This document shows, piece by piece, positions 27,805 through 37,514 of a DNA stretch of 56,895 nt. The notes beneath the pieces are model-generated. The model did no database searches and was not told where the DNA came from. It saw only the letters and a program-made list of their open reading frames with translations. This DNA is from Rhodocyclaceae bacterium (GTDB lineage: Bacteria; Pseudomonadota; Gammaproteobacteria; Burkholderiales; Rhodocyclaceae). Position numbers and translations under genes: made by a program. The stretch spans positions 1 to 56,895 of the forward strand of contig JAGRGB010000180.1 in NCBI GenBank assembly GCA_020445745.1, in the 5' to 3' direction. Each line of letters opens with the position of its first letter. The stretch's first letter is position 1.

Positions 27805-29127
27805 ATGCCCGAACGAGACCTGCTCGCCCGATCGCTGGCCGCGGTCTGGCACCCCTGCACCCAGATGAAGCACCACGAGCGGCAACCGCTGCTGGCGATC
27901 GCGCGCGGCGACGGCCCGTGGCTCGAGGACACCTCGGGCCGACGCCTCATCGACGGCATCAGCTCGTGGTGGACCAACCTCTTCGGACACTGCAATCCAC
28001 GCATCAACGCGGCCCTGCAGGATCAGCTCGGCCGCCTCGAGCACGCGATGCTGGCGGGCTTCACTCACGAACCGGTGGTGGCCCTGTCGGAGCGTCTGTC
28101 GGCGCTGACCGGCGGATCTCTGGGCCATGCCTTCTACGCCTCGGACGGGGCATCGGCGACCGAGATCGCCCTGAAGATGAGCCAGCACTACTGGCGCAAC
28201 AGCGGCCAGCCGGAAAAGAACCGCTTCCTGTGCCTCGAAGGGAGCTACCACGGCGAGACCGTCGGTGCGCTGGCGGTCACCGACGTCGCGATCTTCCGCG
28301 ACGCCTACGCACCGCTGCTGCGGCCGGCGGCGACCGTGGCCACGCCCGACGCCCGCCGGGCGGCTGCCGGCGAGAGCGCGGCCCAAGTCGCCCGCCGGGC
28401 GGCCGCGGTGCTCGAACAGACCCTCGAGCGCGACCACCGCCAGATCGCCGCGCTGATCGTCGAACCGCTGGTCCAGGGCGCATCCGGCATGGTCATGTAC
28501 GACCCGGAATACCTGCGCCTGGCGCGTCGCCTGTGTGACCGCTACCGGGTGCACCTGATCGCCGACGAGATCGCCGTCGGCTTCGGCCGCAGCGGCAGCT
28601 TCTTCGCGTTCGAACAGGCCGGCATCCGCCCGGACCTGCTGTGCCTGTCGAAAGGCATCAGTGGCGGCTACCTGCCGCTGTCGGTGGTGCTGTGCCGCGA
28701 CGAGATCTACCGCGCCTTCTACGATGACACGGTCGGCCGCGCCTTCCTCCACTCCCACAGCTACACCGGCAACGCCCTGGCCTGCCGCGCCGCGCTCGCG
28801 GTGCTCGACATCTTCGACGAAGACGACGTGCTCGCCGCCAACCGCGAGCGAGCCCGCTGGATGGCTGAATCCGCGGCCGAACTGCTGGCCCACCGCCCGA
28901 TCCGCCACCTGCGCCAGCGCGGGATGATCCTGGCCTTCGACGTCGACGATGCCGGCAGCGACTTCGCAGCCCGCTATTTTGCCGCCGCCGTCGAACAGGG
29001 CGTGCTGCTGCGCCCGATAGGCAATACCGTGTACCTGATGCCGCCCTACGTGCTCGACCAGGCGCTCAGCCGTGAGCTCGTCGAGCGCGCGGTTCGAGCC
29101 CTCGACGCGAGCCTCGCGTCGCCGTGA
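27805..29127 (+). CDS. bioA: Adenosylmethionine-8-amino-7-oxononanoate aminotransferase BioA
   Basis: A 440-residue class-III aminotransferase. Diagnostic BioA features are the N-terminal WHPCTQMKHH, GISSWWTNLFGHCNP, SDGASATEIALKM, and YHGETVGALAV. The PLP region is LIADEIAVGFGRSG, with PLP lysine Lys283 in LSKGISGG. It converts KAPA to DAPA with S-adenosylmethionine as amino donor. GGAGG lies before the ATG. It heads the biotin region but is separated from bioF by a PEP-CTERM gene. Confidence 0.95.
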   Translation: MPERDLLARSLAAVWHPCTQMKHHERQPLLAIARGDGPWLEDTSGRRLIDGISSWWTNLFGHCNPRINAALQDQLGRLEHAMLAGFTHEPVVALSERLSALTGGSLGHAFYASDGASATEIALKMSQHYWRNSGQPEKNRFLCLEGSYHGETVGALAVTDVAIFRDAYAPLLRPAATVATPDARRAAAGESAAQVARRAAAVLEQTLERDHRQIAALIVEPLVQGASGMVMYDPEYLRLARRLCDRYRVHLIADEIAVGFGRSGSFFAFEQAGIRPDLLCLSKGISGGYLPLSVVLCRDEIYRAFYDDTVGRAFLHSHSYTGNALACRAALAVLDIFDEDDVLAANRERARWMAESAAELLAHRPIRHLRQRGMILAFDVDDAGSDFAARYFAAAVEQGVLLRPIGNTVYLMPPYVLDQALSRELVERAVRALDASLASP

Positions 29128-29410
29128 TCGGCGCCTGCGCGGAGCACCACGGCGGTGCGCCCGCACGATTGCGGTGCACTAGCTGCCATCCGGATGGCCG
29201 GGGTGGCTCGGCAATTCTGCCTATGGCATATGGGATCAGGATGAAATATACAAACCAACTTATTTATTCATAACGATTTATGTTTCTGGTGCCGCTGCTC
29301 GTCCGGCCGCAGGACCGGGCCCGGCCACGGGCACGCTGCGTGCTTGTCCATGGGCACGGGGCGCTGCGTCGCACAACGCGAGGCCGCCCGCCATGACCCA
29401 GGAGCCCGGC
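29128..29410 (+). promoter_or_regulatory. 283-nt upstream region of the PEP-CTERM gene
   Basis: Around 29220-29285 the sequence is sharply AT-rich (GAAATATACAAACC, ACTTATTTATTCATAACG) against a GC-rich background, fitting a promoter for the exported protein gene. I looked for a -24/-12 sigma-54 site with GG-N10-GC spacing and found none that fits. Confidence 0.4.
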
Positions 29411-29893
29411 ATGAAGAAGCGATTGATTGCGGTACTGGTGCCCGTAGCGCTGGCGGCTGTGACAGCCCAGGCGGCGGTGTTTTCTTCGTTCGAAGGCGAG
29501 CACGATTCGGTCGAAAGCGGATCCGAGATCCTGTTTTCGGCAGGCAGCTTCGACGGCATCTTCGCGTTCACCCTCGGTAACGATTCGCGGGTGACATTCA
29601 CCGGCGGCACGACCCTGCCGAGGCTGGCGTTCGGGCTGTTCGACGCGACCGACGAGCTGGTCTCCGGCTCGATCTTCTCGCGCAGCACCTACCAGAACAG
29701 CTTCACCAGCGTCCTGCTCGGTGCCGGCGATTACTACTACGCGCCGTTGTTCGCCCGCAGCGGGCCGCGCTTTTCGTCGTACAGCTTCGAATCCCGCGTC
29801 ACCACGGTGCCGGAACCCCACACCTACGCACTGTTCCTGGCCGGCATCGGCATGCTCGGATTCGCTGCGAAGCGCCGCCTCAGCCAAGCCTGA
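29411..29893 (+). CDS. PEP-CTERM sorting-domain exported protein
   Basis: A 160-residue protein. Residues 1-22 form a signal peptide (MKKRLIAVLVPVALAAVTAQA). The mature part contains SFDGIFAFTLG, which fits FxDxF-type PEP-CTERM proteins. The C-terminal VPEPHTYALFLAGIGMLGF followed by AKRR is a textbook PEP-CTERM tripartite signal (PEP motif, membrane segment, basic tail). Such proteins are processed by an exosortase, usually in exopolysaccharide-producing Gram-negatives. Start at 29411 with AGGAG at 29400-29404; no exosortase gene is in the window. Confidence 0.92.
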   Translation: MKKRLIAVLVPVALAAVTAQAAVFSSFEGEHDSVESGSEILFSAGSFDGIFAFTLGNDSRVTFTGGTTLPRLAFGLFDATDELVSGSIFSRSTYQNSFTSVLLGAGDYYYAPLFARSGPRFSSYSFESRVTTVPEPHTYALFLAGIGMLGFAAKRRLSQA

Positions 29894-29937: not shown

Positions 29938-29995
29938 CCGACCCGCCGGCGCCCGCCCGCAGTAAGATAGCAATTTGCTCGATTCGCGGAAGCCG

Positions 29996-31156
29996 ATGTT
30001 CCTCGACGATCTTCGCGCCGATCTGGACGAGATCGACCGCCTCGGCCTGGTGCGCCAACGACGATCCCAGCAGTCACCCTGCGGCCCACACGTGCTGCGC
30101 GACGGCCGGCGCTACCTGTCCTTCTGCAGCAACGACTACCTCGGCCTGGCGGCCGCCCCGGAACTGGGCGAGGCCCTGGCCGAAGGTGCGCGACGCTGGG
30201 GCGCCGGCGCCGGCGCCTCGCACCTGGTCAGCGGCCACTACACCGCCCACGACGACCTGGAACAGGCCCTGGCCGAATTCTGCGGCTGCCAGCGCGCCAT
30301 TTCGTTTTCCACCGGCTACATGGCCAACCTCGCCGCGGTCGGCACCCTCGCCGCCCGTGGCGACGCGATCTTCGCCGACCGCCTCAACCATGCCTCGCTG
30401 GTCGATGGCGCGCTGCTCAGCCGCGCCCGGCTGAGCCGCTATCCCCACCGTGACCTCGACCACCTCGCGCACCTGCTGGCGACCACGCCCGCCCGCCGCC
30501 GGCTGATCGTCAGCGACACCGTGTTCAGCATGGACGGCGACCTCGCGCCGGTACCGCAGCTGCTCGAGCTGGCCGATCGCCACGACGCGTTGCTGGTCCT
30601 CGACGACGCCCACGGCCTCGGCGTGCTCGGTCCCCAGGGGCGCGGCACCCTGGCCCATTTCGAGCTTGCCTCGCCGAGGATCGTGCTGATCGGCACCCTC
30701 GGCAAGGCCGCCGGACTGGCCGGCGCCTTCGTCGCCGGCAACCTCAGCGTGATCGAATGGCTGGTGCAGAAGGCGCGCAGCTACATCTTCACGACCGCGG
30801 CGCCGCCGGCGCTCGCCCACGCCCTGCTCACCGCGCTCCGGCTGATCCGCGGCGCCGATCCGCAGCGCGCCGCGTTGCAGGCGCTGGTGGCGCGACTGCG
30901 CCGGGGCCTGGGCGCCAGCCGCTGGCAACTGGCGGACTCGGCGACACCGATCCAGCCGCTGATCGTCGGTGGCAACCACGCCGCGCTGAGCCTGTCACGG
31001 TCCCTCGACGAGGCAGGCGTGTGGGTCCCGGCAATCCGCCCGCCGACGGTGCCCGAAGGCAGCGCGCGGCTGCGCATCTCGCTGTCCGCGGCCCACACCG
31101 GCGGCGACGTGGACCGCCTGCTGGCCCTGTTGAGCACCCTCGAGGCGGCGCCATGA
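29996..31156 (+). CDS. bioF: 8-amino-7-oxononanoate synthase BioF
   Basis: A 386-residue alpha-oxoamine synthase. It has FCSNDYLGLA (46-51 region), SHLVSGHYTAHDDLE, DDAHGLGVLG and the PLP lysine Lys237 in LIGTLGKAAG. It condenses pimeloyl-ACP with alanine to KAPA. ATG 29996 is preferred; an in-frame TTG at 29975 adds seven residues. TAAGAT at 29963-29968 is a -10 candidate. Its TGA overlaps the bioH ATG (31153-31156), starting the coupled bioFHCD chain. Confidence 0.95.
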   Translation: MFLDDLRADLDEIDRLGLVRQRRSQQSPCGPHVLRDGRRYLSFCSNDYLGLAAAPELGEALAEGARRWGAGAGASHLVSGHYTAHDDLEQALAEFCGCQRAISFSTGYMANLAAVGTLAARGDAIFADRLNHASLVDGALLSRARLSRYPHRDLDHLAHLLATTPARRRLIVSDTVFSMDGDLAPVPQLLELADRHDALLVLDDAHGLGVLGPQGRGTLAHFELASPRIVLIGTLGKAAGLAGAFVAGNLSVIEWLVQKARSYIFTTAAPPALAHALLTALRLIRGADPQRAALQALVARLRRGLGASRWQLADSATPIQPLIVGGNHAALSLSRSLDEAGVWVPAIRPPTVPEGSARLRISLSAAHTGGDVDRLLALLSTLEAAP

Positions 31157-31890
31157 GACCGCCCCTGGTGATGCTGCACGGCTGGGCGTCGTCGCCGGCG
31201 GTGTGGCATGCGGCGACGGCAGCGATGGGGGACCACCCGCGCATCATGCCCGCCCTGCCCGGTCACGCCGGCGGTGCGGAAGGCATGGCACCGCGGCTTG
31301 CGGCGTGGGCCACGGCGATCCTCGCCGCCTGTCCGCCGCGCTTCGATCTGTGCGGCTGGTCACTGGGCGGCCTGTTGTCGATCGGCATCGCACTGCTCGC
31401 ACCGGACCGGGTGCGCCGCATCGTGCTGATCGGCACCAGCCCGTGCTTCAGCGCCCGTCCCGGCTGGACCGCCGGCCTCGATGGCGCGCTCGTGGCACGC
31501 TTCAGGGCGGACTTCGCGACCGACCCGGGTCGCATGCTGGCGCGCTTTCATGCCCTGCAGACCCTCGGCGACGGCCACCGCCGGGCGGTCGCCGCCGAGC
31601 TCGAACGCAGCGCCACCGCCCCCCACGCCGCAGGCGGCCTCGCCGCGGGCCTGCAGTTGCTCGACGACACCGACCTGCGCGCCCGACTGTCGGCACTGAC
31701 CCACACGGTGCGCGTGCTGCACGGCGCCGACGACGCACTGATGCCGGCCGCGACGGCGGTCGCCCTCAGCGACGCGCTGCCGCAGGCACGCCTGACGCTG
31801 ATCGGCGAGTGCGGTCACGCGCCCCATCTCTCCCGACCCCGGGATTGCGCGGCGCTGATCGACGGTTTCCTGCACGAGCCGGATCGATGA
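31153..31890 (+). CDS. bioH: Pimeloyl-ACP methyl ester carboxylesterase BioH
   Basis: A 245-residue alpha/beta hydrolase with the compact BioH form. The oxyanion region is PPLVMLHGWASSPAVW, the nucleophile Ser70 sits in CGWSLGG, the acid is in LHGADDALMP, and the catalytic His in GECGHAPHLS. It frees pimeloyl-ACP from its methyl ester after chain elongation, handing substrate to BioF. It overlaps bioF and bioC by 4 nt at each end, and its place in the operon supports the name over generic esterase. Confidence 0.93.
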   Translation: MRPPLVMLHGWASSPAVWHAATAAMGDHPRIMPALPGHAGGAEGMAPRLAAWATAILAACPPRFDLCGWSLGGLLSIGIALLAPDRVRRIVLIGTSPCFSARPGWTAGLDGALVARFRADFATDPGRMLARFHALQTLGDGHRRAVAAELERSATAPHAAGGLAAGLQLLDDTDLRARLSALTHTVRVLHGADDALMPAATAVALSDALPQARLTLIGECGHAPHLSRPRDCAALIDGFLHEPDR

Positions 31891-32765
31891 ACCGCGCCCC
31901 CCGCCATGACAGCCACACCGAGCAGCCGGGCGGCTCCGTCGCCGGTGCCCGGGCGAGTCGCGCAGACGAGCGCTTCGCGGAGTCGCAAGGGGCAAGCCGG
32001 CGGATCGCGCAGAGCTTCGGCCGCGCCGCCGCCGGCTACGACGAGGCGGCGACCGTCCAGCGCCGGATCTGCGATCGCCTGTCCCTGCTCGCGCTCGATC
32101 ATCCGCCGCCGCCCGGCGCCGTCGTCGACGCCGGCTGCGGCACCGGGCACTGGCTGCCGGCGCTGCGCACGAGCTTCGGCGATCGCTTGCTGCTCGGCGT
32201 CGATCTGGCGCTGCCGATGCTGGCGCAGTTGCGGCGCCGACAACCGGACCAGCCCTGCGTCGCCGCCGACGTCCATGCCCTGCCGCTGGCCGACGGCAGT
32301 GCCGCCGCCATCTGGTCGAGCCTGTGCCTGCAATGGTGCCGTCCCGAAGCGGCCTTGGCGGAGTTCGCGCGGGCGCTGCGCCCCGGCGGCGTGCTGTGGC
32401 TGTCCACGCTGGGGCCGGGCACCTTCGCGGAATTGCGTACCGCCTTCGCCGGCATCGACGACGCCCGCCACGTGCTCGAATTCGTCACCCCCGAACGGCT
32501 CGACGCGGCCGCCGCCGCGGCCGGCTTCGCGATCTCGGCACGAGAACGCCGCCGCCATGTCGCCTGCGCCCCGGACCTTGCCGGCTTGCTGCGCGCGATC
32601 AAGGCGGTCGGCGCCCACGAGGTCGGCGACGATCGCCGGCGCAGCCTGCTCGGCCGGCAGGCCTGGCGCACCGTCGAGCGCCGCTTCGAAGCCTACCGCC
32701 GTGCCGATGGCCTGGTCGAAGTCGGCTACGATGCCCTCTATCTGATCCTGCACAAGCGCCCGTGA
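31887..32765 (+). CDS. bioC: Malonyl-ACP O-methyltransferase BioC
   Basis: A 292-residue class-I SAM methyltransferase. After a disordered 35-residue start comes RRIAQSFGRAAAGYDEAATVQRRI, the BioC signature. It is followed by motif I VVDAGCGTGHW, LLGVDLALPML, and LWLSTLGPGTFAELR. BioC methylates malonyl-ACP so it can enter fatty acid synthesis as a disguised primer. The N-terminal extension is longer than usual; a later start is possible. Its stop overlaps the bioD GTG (32762-32765). Confidence 0.93.
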   Translation: MNRAPRHDSHTEQPGGSVAGARASRADERFAESQGASRRIAQSFGRAAAGYDEAATVQRRICDRLSLLALDHPPPPGAVVDAGCGTGHWLPALRTSFGDRLLLGVDLALPMLAQLRRRQPDQPCVAADVHALPLADGSAAAIWSSLCLQWCRPEAALAEFARALRPGGVLWLSTLGPGTFAELRTAFAGIDDARHVLEFVTPERLDAAAAAAGFAISARERRRHVACAPDLAGLLRAIKAVGAHEVGDDRRRSLLGRQAWRTVERRFEAYRRADGLVEVGYDALYLILHKRP

Positions 32766-33835
32766 CCGCGAGCCGCAGCTATTTCATCGCCGGCACCGAC
32801 ACCGAGATCGGCAAGACCTACGCCACCTGCGCGCTGCTCCATCATGCCCGCGGAGCCGGCTTGCGCGCGCTCGGCATGAAGCCGGTGGCGGCCGGCGCCC
32901 GGACGATCGACGGCGGCCTGCGCAACGACGACGCGATGGCGCTGATCGGCGCCAGCAGCTTCGCCAGCGACTACCGTCTGGTCAATCCGATCTGCCTGGC
33001 GGAAGCCGTGGCTCCGCACATCGCGGCCGCCGACGAGGGCCGCACGATCGATCCGGCCGTGATCCTGGCCGCCCGCGACGCCCTGTCGGCGCATGCGGAT
33101 GTGCTGCTGATCGAAGGCGTCGGCGGCTTTCGCGTTCCGTTGCAGCGCGACTTCGACACCGCCGATCTCGCCACCGAACTGGCGGCACCGGTGATTCTGG
33201 TGGTCGGCCTGCGGCTGGGCTGCATCAACCACGCGCTGCTCACCGCCGATGCGATTCGCGCCCGCGGTCTCGATCTCGTCGGCTGGATCGCCAACGCCGT
33301 CGACCCGCTGATGAGCCGCCGCGAAGAGAACGTCGCTGCCCTCGACGAGCGCCTCGGCTGCCGGCGCCTCGGCGTGCTGCCCCATGACGAAGCCCGCGAT
33401 CCGGCGTCGGCGGCCGGCCTGCTGTCGCTGCCGGCGCCGCCGCGCGAGGCGGCGGCCGGCGCCATCGTGCTGATCGACAGTGCCGCCCGCCTGCATGGCG
33501 GTCACCGCGGCCGGGTGGTCGTCACCGGCAGCCACGGCGGCCGCAGCACGGCCCGTCATGCGCTGCGGGCGGGCGCCCGGCTGTGCTTCTTCAATGACGC
33601 CGGCCGCGGCAAGGACGACGCCGGCGTAGCCGCCCTGGCGATGCTGCAGCGCGCCGGCCTCGCGGCCGCTTGCTACAGTCATGACAGCGCCTGCCTCGGC
33701 GACGCCCGCGACGGCTTCGGCAACGGCTACATCACGGTCGTGAACGATGCCGCCGCGGCAATGGGACTGCGCGTCGGCATGAGTGTCGTCGAGGCCGCAA
33801 GCCTGGCGGCGCATCCCGGAACCGGCGAGGACTGA
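32762..33835 (+). CDS. bioD: Dethiobiotin synthetase BioD fused to an extra C-terminal domain
   Basis: A 357-residue protein from GTG 32762. Residues 1-225 are a complete BioD: P-loop GTDTEIGKT (11-19), MKPVAAG, EGVGGFRVPL, and a normal end near LPHDEARDPASAAG. Residues about 233-350 form an additional domain with SHGG (257-260), FNDAGRGKDDAG (277-288), SHDSACLGDARDG (306-318) and VVNDAA. I have an impression of such a domain as a stand-alone hypothetical but cannot name it. No stop or frame break separates the two. BioD closes the ureido ring of dethiobiotin using ATP and CO2. Ordinary BioD is about 225-240 residues. Confidence 0.92.
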   Translation: MTASRSYFIAGTDTEIGKTYATCALLHHARGAGLRALGMKPVAAGARTIDGGLRNDDAMALIGASSFASDYRLVNPICLAEAVAPHIAAADEGRTIDPAVILAARDALSAHADVLLIEGVGGFRVPLQRDFDTADLATELAAPVILVVGLRLGCINHALLTADAIRARGLDLVGWIANAVDPLMSRREENVAALDERLGCRRLGVLPHDEARDPASAAGLLSLPAPPREAAAGAIVLIDSAARLHGGHRGRVVVTGSHGGRSTARHALRAGARLCFFNDAGRGKDDAGVAALAMLQRAGLAAACYSHDSACLGDARDGFGNGYITVVNDAAAAMGLRVGMSVVEAASLAAHPGTGED

Positions 33836-33848
33836 GGCACTGCACCCG

Positions 33849-33872
33849 CGCTGGCAGCAGTTTCGGCCAGCG
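33849..33872 (+). terminator. Inverted repeat after bioD
   Basis: CGCTGGC (33849-33855) and GCCAGCG (33866-33872) form a 7-bp stem with a 10-nt loop, 13 nt after the bioD stop. No T-run. Probable 3' end of the biotin operon transcript, weakly supported. Confidence 0.35.
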
Positions 33873-34002
33873 GCACGCACATGCCTGGGCGACGATGGCG
33901 CCGGCGTCGCTCGGGCGTCCTGCCGGGCGTGGTTTCCGGGTTAGACTGTCGCCCTGCCCCCGCGTGGCGCGAGGGCGTCGCAGCCATGCTGGAGGGTCGA
34001 AC

Positions 34003-34571: not shown

Positions 34572-35381
34572 ATGCCCGTCGATCACTACGAGAATTTTCC
34601 GGTTGCCTCCATGCTGCTGCCGGCTCGCCTGCGTGAGCCGGTCGAGGCGATCTACGCGTTCGCGCGCTCGGCCGACGACATCGCCGACGAGGGCGACGCC
34701 GAAGCCGGCGCGCGTCTCGCCGGACTCGATGCCTACCGCCGCCAGCTCGACGCGATCGAAGGCGGTGGCGAACTGTCGGAGCCGATGTTCCTGCGACTGG
34801 CGCGCGCGGTGCATGGCTGGGACCTGCCGTTGCCGCTGTTGCGCGACCTGCTCGACGCCTTCGCCCAGGATGTCGTCAAGACCCGCTATCGCGACTTCGA
34901 CGAACTGCTCGACTACTGCCGGCGCTCCGCCAATCCGGTGGGGCGGCTGCTGCTGCGCCTCTACCGTGCCGAGAGCGCGCGCAACCTGCGCGACTCCGAC
35001 GCGATCTGCAGCGCGCTGCAGCTGATCAACTTCTGGCAGGACATCGCGGTGGACTGGCGCAAGGCGCGCATCTACCTGCCGGCCGACAGCATGGCCCGCT
35101 TTGCCGTCGGCGAAGCCCACATCGCCGACGCACGGGTGGACGACGCATGGCGAGCGCTGCTCGGATTCGAGGTCGCGAGGGCGCGCGCGATGATGCTCGA
35201 CGGTGCGCCCCTCGCGCGTCGCCTGCCGGGCCGCATCGGCTGGGAGCTGCGGCTGGTGGTCGAGGGCGGGCTGCGCATTCTGGAACGGATCGAAGCGGTC
35301 GGATACGATGTATTCGGCCACCGGCCAAGCCTGGGCAGGGCCGACTGGGCCCGCCTGGTCTGGCGCGCGACAACTCGCTGA
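34572..35381 (+). CDS. hpnC: HpnC, squalene-synthase-like enzyme
   Basis: A 269-residue trans-isoprenyl diphosphate synthase fold protein. DHYENFPVASMLLP starts it. The first acidic motif is FARSADDIADEGD, the second INFWQDIAVDWRKARIYLP. HpnC, HpnD and HpnE together replace classical squalene synthase; HpnC turns presqualene diphosphate into hydroxysqualene. First gene of hpnCDE, 7 nt before hpnD. Confidence 0.93.
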   Translation: MPVDHYENFPVASMLLPARLREPVEAIYAFARSADDIADEGDAEAGARLAGLDAYRRQLDAIEGGGELSEPMFLRLARAVHGWDLPLPLLRDLLDAFAQDVVKTRYRDFDELLDYCRRSANPVGRLLLRLYRAESARNLRDSDAICSALQLINFWQDIAVDWRKARIYLPADSMARFAVGEAHIADARVDDAWRALLGFEVARARAMMLDGAPLARRLPGRIGWELRLVVEGGLRILERIEAVGYDVFGHRPSLGRADWARLVWRATTR

Positions 35382-35388
35382 ACCCGAC

Positions 35389-36222
35389 ATGGATCCACAT
35401 CAGTACTGCCAGGACAAGGCAGCCGCCAGCGGCTCCAGCTTCTATTACAGTTTCCTCTTCCTGCCCCCGGACCGGCGTCGCGCGATCACGGCGCTGTACG
35501 CCTTCTGCCGCGAAGTCGACGACGTCGTGGACGAATGCCACGATCCGTCTATCGCCCAGAGCAAGCTCGACTGGTGGCGCTGCGAGGTGAGCGAAATCGC
35601 CGATGGCCGACCCAGCCATCCGGTCGGCCAGGCGCTGGCCGAGGTCGCCCGCGATTTCGACCTGCCGGCCGAGCAGCTGCTGGAGATCATCGACGGCATG
35701 CAGATGGATCTGCAGCATCCGCGCTACGCCGATTTCCGCAGTCTGCAGCTCTACTGCTACCGCGTGGCCAGCGTGGTCGGGCTGCTGTCGGCGGGCATCT
35801 TCGGCTACCACGACCGCCAGACCCTGAAGTACGCCCATGACCTCGGCATGGCCTTCCAGCTCACCAACATCATCCGTGATGTCGGCGAGGACGCCCGCCG
35901 CGGACGCATCTACGTGCCGGTCGAGGACCTGCAGCGCTTCGGTGTCGCCGCCGAGGAACTGTTCGAGGCGCGCTACAGTCCGGCTTTCCACGAATTGATG
36001 GAATTCCAGTTCCAGCGGGCACAGGCCTTCTACCGCAAGGCCTTCGAACAGCTCCCGGCGGTCGATCGCAAGAGCCAGCGGCCCGGCCTGGTGATGGCGG
36101 CGATCTATCGCACCCTGCTCGACGAGATCCGCAGCGACGGCTTCAAGGTGCTCGACCGTCGCACCTCCCTGACCCCGCTTCGCAAGATCTGGCTCGCCGG
36201 CACGACCTGGATCCGGGCATGA
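35389..36222 (+). CDS. hpnD: Presqualene diphosphate synthase HpnD
   Basis: A 277-residue homologue of squalene/phytoene synthase. It begins QYCQDKAAASGSSFYYSFLFLP. The acidic motifs are YAFCREVDDVVDEC and LTNIIRDVGEDARRGRIYVP. It condenses two farnesyl diphosphates to presqualene diphosphate. The stop overlaps the hpnE ATG by 4 nt (36219-36222). Order and spacing make the hpnCDE assignment secure. Confidence 0.95.
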   Translation: MDPHQYCQDKAAASGSSFYYSFLFLPPDRRRAITALYAFCREVDDVVDECHDPSIAQSKLDWWRCEVSEIADGRPSHPVGQALAEVARDFDLPAEQLLEIIDGMQMDLQHPRYADFRSLQLYCYRVASVVGLLSAGIFGYHDRQTLKYAHDLGMAFQLTNIIRDVGEDARRGRIYVPVEDLQRFGVAAEELFEARYSPAFHELMEFQFQRAQAFYRKAFEQLPAVDRKSQRPGLVMAAIYRTLLDEIRSDGFKVLDRRTSLTPLRKIWLAGTTWIRA

Positions 36223-37514
36223 AGCCCGACGTCGCGGTGATCGGCGGCGGCTACGCCGGACTCGCTTGCGCGGTCGCGCTGGCCCGCTCCGAGCGCGTAC
36301 GGGTGACCGTGTTCGAGTCGGGGCGCGTACTCGGTGGCCGTGCGCGCGTCGTCACGCGCCACGATCCACCGGTGGACAACGGCCAGCACATCCTGATCGG
36401 CGCCTACACGCAGCTCCTGCAGACGATGCGTCAGGTCGGGGTGTCGCCAAAGCTGCTCGAGACCCTGCCGCTCACCATCGCCTACCCCGACGGCTTCGAA
36501 TTGCGCGCCGCGCGCCTGCCGGCACCGCTGCATCTGGCGGTCGGCCTGGCCCGTGCCCGCGGACTCGCGTGGTCCGACCGCCTCGCCGCCGCGCAACTGA
36601 TCCGCCGACTGCGTCGCCGCCACTGGCAGGTGTCGCCGGACAGGCCGGTGGCCGAAGTGTTGGACGATCTCGGCCAGACCCCGACGCTGCGCGCGCGGCT
36701 GTGGGAGCCCCTGTGCGTGGCGGCGCTGAACACGCCGGCAAGCGAGGCCTCGGCCCAGGTGTTCGCCAACGTGCTGCGTGACAGCCTCGCCGCCGGCAGC
36801 GCCGCGAGCGAATTGCTCATTCCGCGGGTAGACCTGTCCGAACTCTTCCCGGTGCCGGCGACCCGCTGGCTCGGTCGACGGGGCCACGACGTGCGCACTT
36901 CGGACGCGATCCGCGCGATCCGCGTCGAGGACGGCGTGTTCTGGCTCGATGGCGGGCCGAGCTGGGTCGGCTACGAGCAGGTGGTGGTCGCCACCGCACC
37001 CTATCACGCCGCGCCGCTGCTCGAACCGTTTGCGGCGCTGGCCGGAGTACGCGAATCGATCGAGGCGCTCGACCACCAGCCGATCACGACGGTCTATCTG
37101 CGCTACGAGAACTCACCCCTGTCCGGTCCACCGATGGTCGGTCTCGTCGACGGACCCGCCCAGTGGCTGTTCGACCGCGGCCGCCTGGGCGGCCCCCGCG
37201 GCCTGCTGGCGGCGGTTGTCAGTGCCCGCAGCCGCTACGACGAGCTGCCGCACGAAGCGCTGGAGCTGGCCGTCCGGCGGCAGCTCGAACGGGCTTTCGA
37301 ACGCCTGCCGATGCCCACCTGGATCCGCAGCATCGCCGAGCGGCGCGCCACCTTCTCGTGCCGCCCCGGCATCGCGCGGCCCGACAACCGCACGCCGTTG
37401 GCGGGCCTGTGGCTGGCCGGCGACTACACGCGCGGCCCCTATCCGGCGACCCTGGAAGGCGCGGTACGCAGCGGCCTCGCCGCTGCCCGTGGTGTGCTGG
37501 CCTCGCTCGACTGA
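36219..37514 (+). CDS. hpnE: Hydroxysqualene dehydroxylase HpnE
   Basis: A 431-residue flavin amine-oxidase-fold protein. The FAD loop is VAVIGGGYAGLACAVALA (5-22), then ESGRVLGGRA and DNGQHILIGAY. The C-terminal FAD motif is GLWLAGDYTRGPYPATLEGAVRSG. HpnE reduces hydroxysqualene to squalene, the precursor of hopanoids or sterol-like lipids. No squalene-hopene cyclase gene is in this window. Last gene of the operon, convergent with the hemerythrin gene 12 nt away. Confidence 0.95.
   Translation: MKPDVAVIGGGYAGLACAVALARSERVRVTVFESGRVLGGRARVVTRHDPPVDNGQHILIGAYTQLLQTMRQVGVSPKLLETLPLTIAYPDGFELRAARLPAPLHLAVGLARARGLAWSDRLAAAQLIRRLRRRHWQVSPDRPVAEVLDDLGQTPTLRARLWEPLCVAALNTPASEASAQVFANVLRDSLAAGSAASELLIPRVDLSELFPVPATRWLGRRGHDVRTSDAIRAIRVEDGVFWLDGGPSWVGYEQVVVATAPYHAAPLLEPFAALAGVRESIEALDHQPITTVYLRYENSPLSGPPMVGLVDGPAQWLFDRGRLGGPRGLLAAVVSARSRYDELPHEALELAVRRQLERAFERLPMPTWIRSIAERRATFSCRPGIARPDNRTPLAGLWLAGDYTRGPYPATLEGAVRSGLAAARGVLASLD

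Follow-up and report, generated by a model that had tools for sequence, protein, structure and literature searches.

Dethiobiotin synthetase joined to an unnamed C-terminal domain in a genus of Rhodocyclaceae: the fused gene, relatives of the domain and its possible roles

In a stretch of 56,895 nucleotides from Rhodocyclaceae bacterium (GenBank assembly GCA_020445745.1, contig JAGRGB010000180.1, forward strand; the whole stretch is hereafter called the window), the bioD gene, encoding dethiobiotin synthetase, continues without a stop codon into a region encoding a second, unnamed domain. This raises two questions: whether both parts form a single protein maintained by selection, and whether the added domain serves biotin synthesis, as was suggested in a preliminary description of the locus, acts as a module in its own right, or simply folds. 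The fusion is real and under selection, and it has been seen in a single genus, represented by uncultured bacteria; the fused gene is a new variant of BioD. As to the second question, the odds are slightly in favor of an intact, independent domain module tethered to a complete BioD.

The fused reading frame and its orthologues

Judged from its sequence, the N-terminal part is an ordinary complete BioD, predicted to carboxylate 7,8-diaminopelargonic acid to dethiobiotin at the expense of ATP. The Pfam BioD model PF13500 spans residues 5–211, the NCBIfam model TIGR00347 spans residues 8–178 (E = 5e-47; 160.1 bits, passing the equivalog cut-off of 83.3 bits), the P-loop GTDTEIGKT and the motif KPVAAG are both present, and 223 residues superpose on the 224-residue E. 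coli BioD (1dbs) with a root-mean-square deviation of 1.4; the BioD fold is complete. The loss of the serine of E. coli KPVASG was considered as a mark of the fused form and rejected, as this place is occupied by alanine in 27 of 29 BioDs of the order, and by threonine and serine in one each.

Counted from just before the P-loop, the frame comprises 355 residues in the window versus 217–241 in 29 BioD frames of the order, in agreement with the approximately 130 extra codons noted in the preliminary description. The linker between BioD and the extra domain is about eight residues long. The motifs GSHGG, FNDAGRGKDDAG and SHDSACLGDARDG, which had been thought to mark a separate small domain, are all present in the translation of positions 32762–33835 of the forward strand and have turned out to be the conserved blocks of a real family.

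The GC content at the three codon positions is similar in the BioD part and the domain part. In this GC-rich DNA (GC content at third codon positions 0.86–0.90) long spurious frames are common, and the opposite strand is also open, with a 380-codon frame at 32738–33880; hence the open frame by itself is weak evidence. What raises the fusion above chance is the existence of domain relatives, full-length fused orthologues in four other species, and the ratio of nonsynonymous to synonymous substitution rates (dN/dS). A chance frame, a frameshift or a misassembly was rejected on these grounds, practically with certainty.

A genome search of the genus revealed the fusion in five of six species, the match spanning both parts. 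In the four relatives the domain matches range from 7e-51 to 9e-41 and the fused proteins differ from the window one by 23–38%; there is a single domain match per fused genome. All four are metagenome bins of one series, their contigs being named in different ways. By our own Nei-Gojobori count over the ten pairs of the five fused species, dN/dS is 0.18–0.42 from residue 233 on and 0.27–0.41 before it. Thus, purifying selection on the domain resembles that on BioD.

In the sixth species (G003) the match stops at residue 209; this genome has bioD only, and the domain was not found in it. Since this species is the most divergent one in the genus (56% over the matched part versus 64–78% for the others), the simplest explanation is that the domain was gained once, after G003 had branched off. 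In an 83-row tree, whose bootstrap did not converge and in which many other forks are open, the five fused domains form one clade (support 100/99), from which we infer that the domain was most likely joined to bioD once, in frame, in the ancestor of the five species. A secondary loss of the domain in G003 is possible.

When 300 sampled genomes of the order, the other fused species not among them, were searched with the whole protein, 262 had a match. Among the matches listed, only the window's own covers the domain without crossing a stop; all rows elsewhere that reach past residue 235 (up to 275) cross one. A literature search found, among the matches listed, neither the unnamed domain family nor a BioD fusion of this kind. 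We also considered whether the domain might be translated separately, starting inside the gene: a GTG at residue 205, within the last conserved BioD block, is common to four of the five fused genes, and upstream of the second strand of the domain there is no start common to all five. We do not favor this alternative.

The domain family and its predicted fold

The family, made up of alpha/beta domains of about 120 residues, has neither a Pfam nor an NCBIfam name. A contig search for relatives gave 383 pattern matches, of which 358 were confirmed; the best 80 of the 358 were analyzed, comprising the four fused relatives and 76 non-fused loci. No BioD frame was found in any of the 76. Most of these loci (74) have one copy of the domain, two copies being present in L087 and L098, and their stop-to-stop frames are mostly 120–200 codons long, with few longer ones and a maximum of 491. 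A domain match (E <= 1e-3, the window copy as the query) was also found in ten plasmid records; all eight plasmid loci analyzed have two tandem copies, with proteins of approximately 270–290 residues where annotated. The family is spread over several Pseudomonadota classes, Chloroflexota, Thermaceae, one actinobacterium, Rhodococcus plasmids, haloarchaeal plasmids and others; in a spread of 398 genomes of the phylum, 7 have a match, including the window's own and one weak. No domain match was observed in phages, viral contigs or PADLOC, and no match to a BioD query was confirmed in viral contigs; a connection to phages or defence was therefore rejected. One open frame (L072:5920-7392, on the same contig as L006) encodes the domain and then an acetamidase/formamidase (PF03069) with no intervening stop; this may be another fusion involving the family, or else two genes separated by a stop-free spacer.

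The window copy carries the three conserved loops (Table 1) and the conserved helix Asn, and by this test belongs to the family. Of 25 columns conserved in at least 90% of the 78 non-fused rows, 24 are retained in the window copy and all 25 in each of the other four fused ones; seven of the 25 columns fall inside the retrieval pattern. Since the NDAGxGK loop was in this pattern, its conservation is partly a matter of choice; the plasmid relatives, which were found without the pattern, keep it as well, apart from changes in Rhodococcus. Given the retained columns, the fused domain probably still functions as a module for ligand binding or catalysis.

If, alternatively, two genes had been joined by the loss of a stop and a spacer, leaving a tail that only folds and is inert or at most stabilizing, one could point to the fusion being known from a single genus and to the free-standing relatives sharing no universal partner gene. 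However, neither the dN/dS values given above nor the near-complete retention of polar loop residues across five species agrees with this, since the loop His, Asp, Lys and Asn would be dispensable for folding alone. We consider such a tail improbable.

The fold of the domain is predicted with a mean local confidence score (predicted local distance difference test, pLDDT) of 88.5. In the model, strands 2, 3 and 4 are each followed by a loop, and these loops, together with the beginning of a later helix, carry most of the conserved polar residues. Folds of this kind usually bind their ligands at such positions, so a putative cavity may lie there, and the ligand-binding or enzymatic nature proposed in the preliminary description fits this prediction.

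Sequence matches to solved structures are weak (the best one, to DepH, has E = 0.035), and Foldseek gave no PDB or viral match at E <= 0.001, which does not in itself make the fold new. The DUF1805 model (PF08827) scores the window domain at 13.8–14 bits, below the Pfam gathering cut-off of 29.5. In a profile-profile comparison with seven DUF1805 proteins the probability was 58% (pairwise E = 9.7e-5, 77 collinear columns) versus 0.1% for one unrelated control. Fold and profile comparison hint that the domain is perhaps distantly related to DUF1805/YunC, itself an uncharacterized family. DUF1805 is present in 2 of the 398 genomes of the phylum and absent from G000 and G003. On beta-proteobacterial plasmids, a DUF1805 protein gene adjoins genes for a PAS-domain protein and an ATP-binding protein (L147, L148) or an annotated histidine kinase (L146); these neighbors are hints of a sensing role for DUF1805.

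Genes around the fused and the free-standing domains

In the window, the fused gene follows bioF, bioH and bioC (Table 1), with overlaps between bioF and bioH and, by GTGA, between bioC and bioD. BioF homologues at 73–86% are present in the other four fused loci. In all six genomes of the genus bioB was above the cut-off, so that the biotin pathway looks complete there. A gene for a PEP-CTERM-type exported protein (29393-29893) lies between bioA and bioF, and a similar gene is found in L020. Downstream of the fused gene there is a cyclophilin-like protein gene (PF04126; 34003-34374); a tie between the two was rejected, as this gene follows the fusion in only three of the five fused genomes. 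Further on, at 34572-37514, two consecutive squalene/phytoene synthase-type genes (PF00494) precede a frame (36219-37514) that, judged by eye, resembles an FAD-dependent oxidoreductase; we assume that these may be a squalene/hopanoid set.

Table 1. Coordinates of the fused gene, its parts and the adjacent biotin genes in the window.
Feature	Position	Strand	Remarks
Fused gene, BioD and C-terminal domain	32762..33835	+	357 aa, GTG start, TGA stop 33833-33835
Complete BioD (dethiobiotin synthetase), residues 1-225	32762..33436	+	
Linker, residues 226-233	33437..33460	+	differs among the five species; based on the alignment and the ends of ordinary BioDs
Unnamed alpha/beta domain, residues 234-350	33461..33811	+	perhaps distantly related to DUF1805
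SHGG loop, residues 257-260	33530..33541	+	in 78, 78, 77 and 78 of 78 non-fused rows
NDAGxGKD loop, residues 278-285	33593..33616	+	N, D, A, G, G, K in 77-78 of 78 non-fused rows
SHxSAxxGDA loop, residues 306-315	33677..33706	+	family consensus SHxSARIGDA, window SHDSACLGDA
BioA-like class III aminotransferase	27805..29127	+	
BioF	29975..31156	+	named by translation and position
BioH-like alpha/beta hydrolase	31153..31890	+	
BioC-like methyltransferase	31902..32765	+	stop overlaps the bioD start (GTGA); putative start position

The neighbors of the free-standing relatives were tallied with our own gene caller (38 upstream and 26 downstream genes of the 76 loci). The 39-row branch holding the fused domain (support 87/88) has no general partner gene; some close relatives in it have a nuclease gene downstream (five loci) or a ROK gene upstream (four loci), and the scanned loci nearest to the fused clade have unlike neighbors. 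TctC-type genes (16 of the 76 loci) and DctM-type genes (9 loci) were not counted as a link, because bacteria of this sort commonly have both families.

A role in biotin synthesis, proposed in the preliminary description, would mean that the domain has been recruited to sense a metabolite (ATP, biotin or a carboxylate) and tune BioD, or to supply or channel a substrate. This is consistent with the position of the domain after a complete BioD via a short linker, retained in five of six species, with the fused copy being the only one in each fused genome, and with the seemingly complete pathway. The best of five full-length models (pLDDT 90.1, predicted template modeling score 0.81) would also permit a defined packing; however, the other four reach pLDDT of only 72–77, so the packing of BioD and the domain is insecure. 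Several other observations disagree with such a role. The bioA, F, H, C and D genes were not recognized in the 76 non-fused loci (779,474 bases, up to 6 kb on each side of the domain, many loci being ended by contig ends; bioB was not searched there), save for weak paralogues: in L075 a class III aminotransferase with 28% identity to BioA (E = 7e-45), confirmed as Aminotran_3 only, lies directly upstream of the domain, and L074 and L070 have short weak matches. Moreover, no other BioD of the order sample carries the domain among the matches listed, G003 manages without it, and the partner that recurs with the family across phyla is sugar-acid catabolism. Of the two circumstances named beforehand as contrary to a biotin role, the free domain is indeed not near biotin genes in our sample, whereas the fusion occurs in more than a single strain. 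We regard a role in biotin synthesis as a tentative alternative, held with low confidence.

The sugar-acid genes form a recurrent set. A RuBisCO-like protein (RLP) gene and a four-carbon acid sugar kinase gene were each found in 9, and a KARI-like (PGDH_C) dehydrogenase gene in 7, of the 76 non-fused loci; at least one member is present in 11 loci and at least two in 9, the set recurring across phyla. The gene order RLP-kinase-KARI-domain is observed in L062, L084, L088 and L155, and with a doubled domain in genome G520. The doubled domain adjoins RLP and the kinase on three haloarchaeal plasmids and, by coordinates, RLP on two more plasmids. The tested RLPs and kinases most closely resemble OiaX and OiaK, enzymes of apiose catabolism; OiaX/OiaK-like clusters with the domain are those of L062, L084, L088, L078, L086 and L155 for the free-standing form, along with the haloarchaeal plasmids L010, L011 and L102. 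OiaX and OiaK are named as apiose pathway enzymes in PMC11747546.

The RLP gene occurs in 9 of 76 loci versus 3 of 289 genomes (binomial 1e-7), a rough estimate, as the loci are related to one another, the base rate comes from one class, and G520, the center of the sample chosen for having the domain, is among the three (2 of 288 without it). Vice versa, RLP is often found without the domain (301 plasmid records with RLP at E <= 1e-40 versus 10 with the domain at E <= 1e-3); in G734 the cluster is present but the domain is not. From its recurrent place in these clusters, the free-standing domain is possibly an unrecognized component, accessory or step of a sugar-acid pathway. Since all 11 cluster loci are outside the 39-row branch of the fused domain, and the genus has RLP matches of only 33–34% in two of six genomes, this clue is not simply transferable to the fusion.

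As the same domain is both fused to BioD and clustered with RuBisCO-like enzymes, the unnamed family might handle CO2, bicarbonate or carbamate, and could feed or remove CO2 at BioD and RLP. BioD closes a carbamate made from CO2, and OiaX-type RuBisCO-like enzymes perform CO2 chemistry and, as relatives of RuBisCO, may depend on a carbamylated lysine. Neighboring loops of the domain carry two conserved His and one conserved Asp, which could bind a metal or serve as a general base. We consider this explanation very unlikely.

A tethered module and its comparison with known systems

Under the reading that we slightly prefer, an independent module tethered to BioD, the domain would most likely work as it does in its free-standing relatives. 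The SHGG, NDAGxGKD and SHxSARIGDA loops and the Asn of the later helix may line a polar pocket that accommodates a small, negatively charged metabolite, and the conserved His, Asp and Lys possibly do chemistry. Through the fusion, the activity of the domain would then depend on the biotin operon being expressed and would be tied to BioD at a 1:1 ratio. A fusion retained with a well-studied enzyme provides a handle on an uncharacterized family of bacteria and haloarchaeal plasmids: BioD assays and complementation in E. coli K-12 are simple, so the influence of the domain on this enzyme is directly measurable. A role of the free-standing domain in the sugar-acid pathway can be tested independently in the OiaX/OiaK-like clusters.

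Clusters similar to those of OiaX and OiaK contain relatives of the domain, both free-standing and doubled, but four RLPs (452–505 bits) and four kinases (445–530 bits) are below the equivalog cut-offs of 700, so the pathway may be called only apionate-like. Compared with DUF1805/YunC (TA1206, 1qw2), the domain is longer than the aligned DUF1805 proteins, which lack the SHGG and NDAGxGKD loops. The bifunctional BioA-BioD of Arabidopsis (4a0f and kin) likewise contains BioD within a fusion protein; there, however, BioD is joined to an enzyme of the same pathway, whereas its partner in the window is without a known role in biotin synthesis. Finally, the window gene resembles ordinary bioD (TIGR00347; 1dbs) in having bioC directly upstream, and differs in that its protein has about 130 extra residues forming a second domain, which other BioDs of the order lack among the matches listed.
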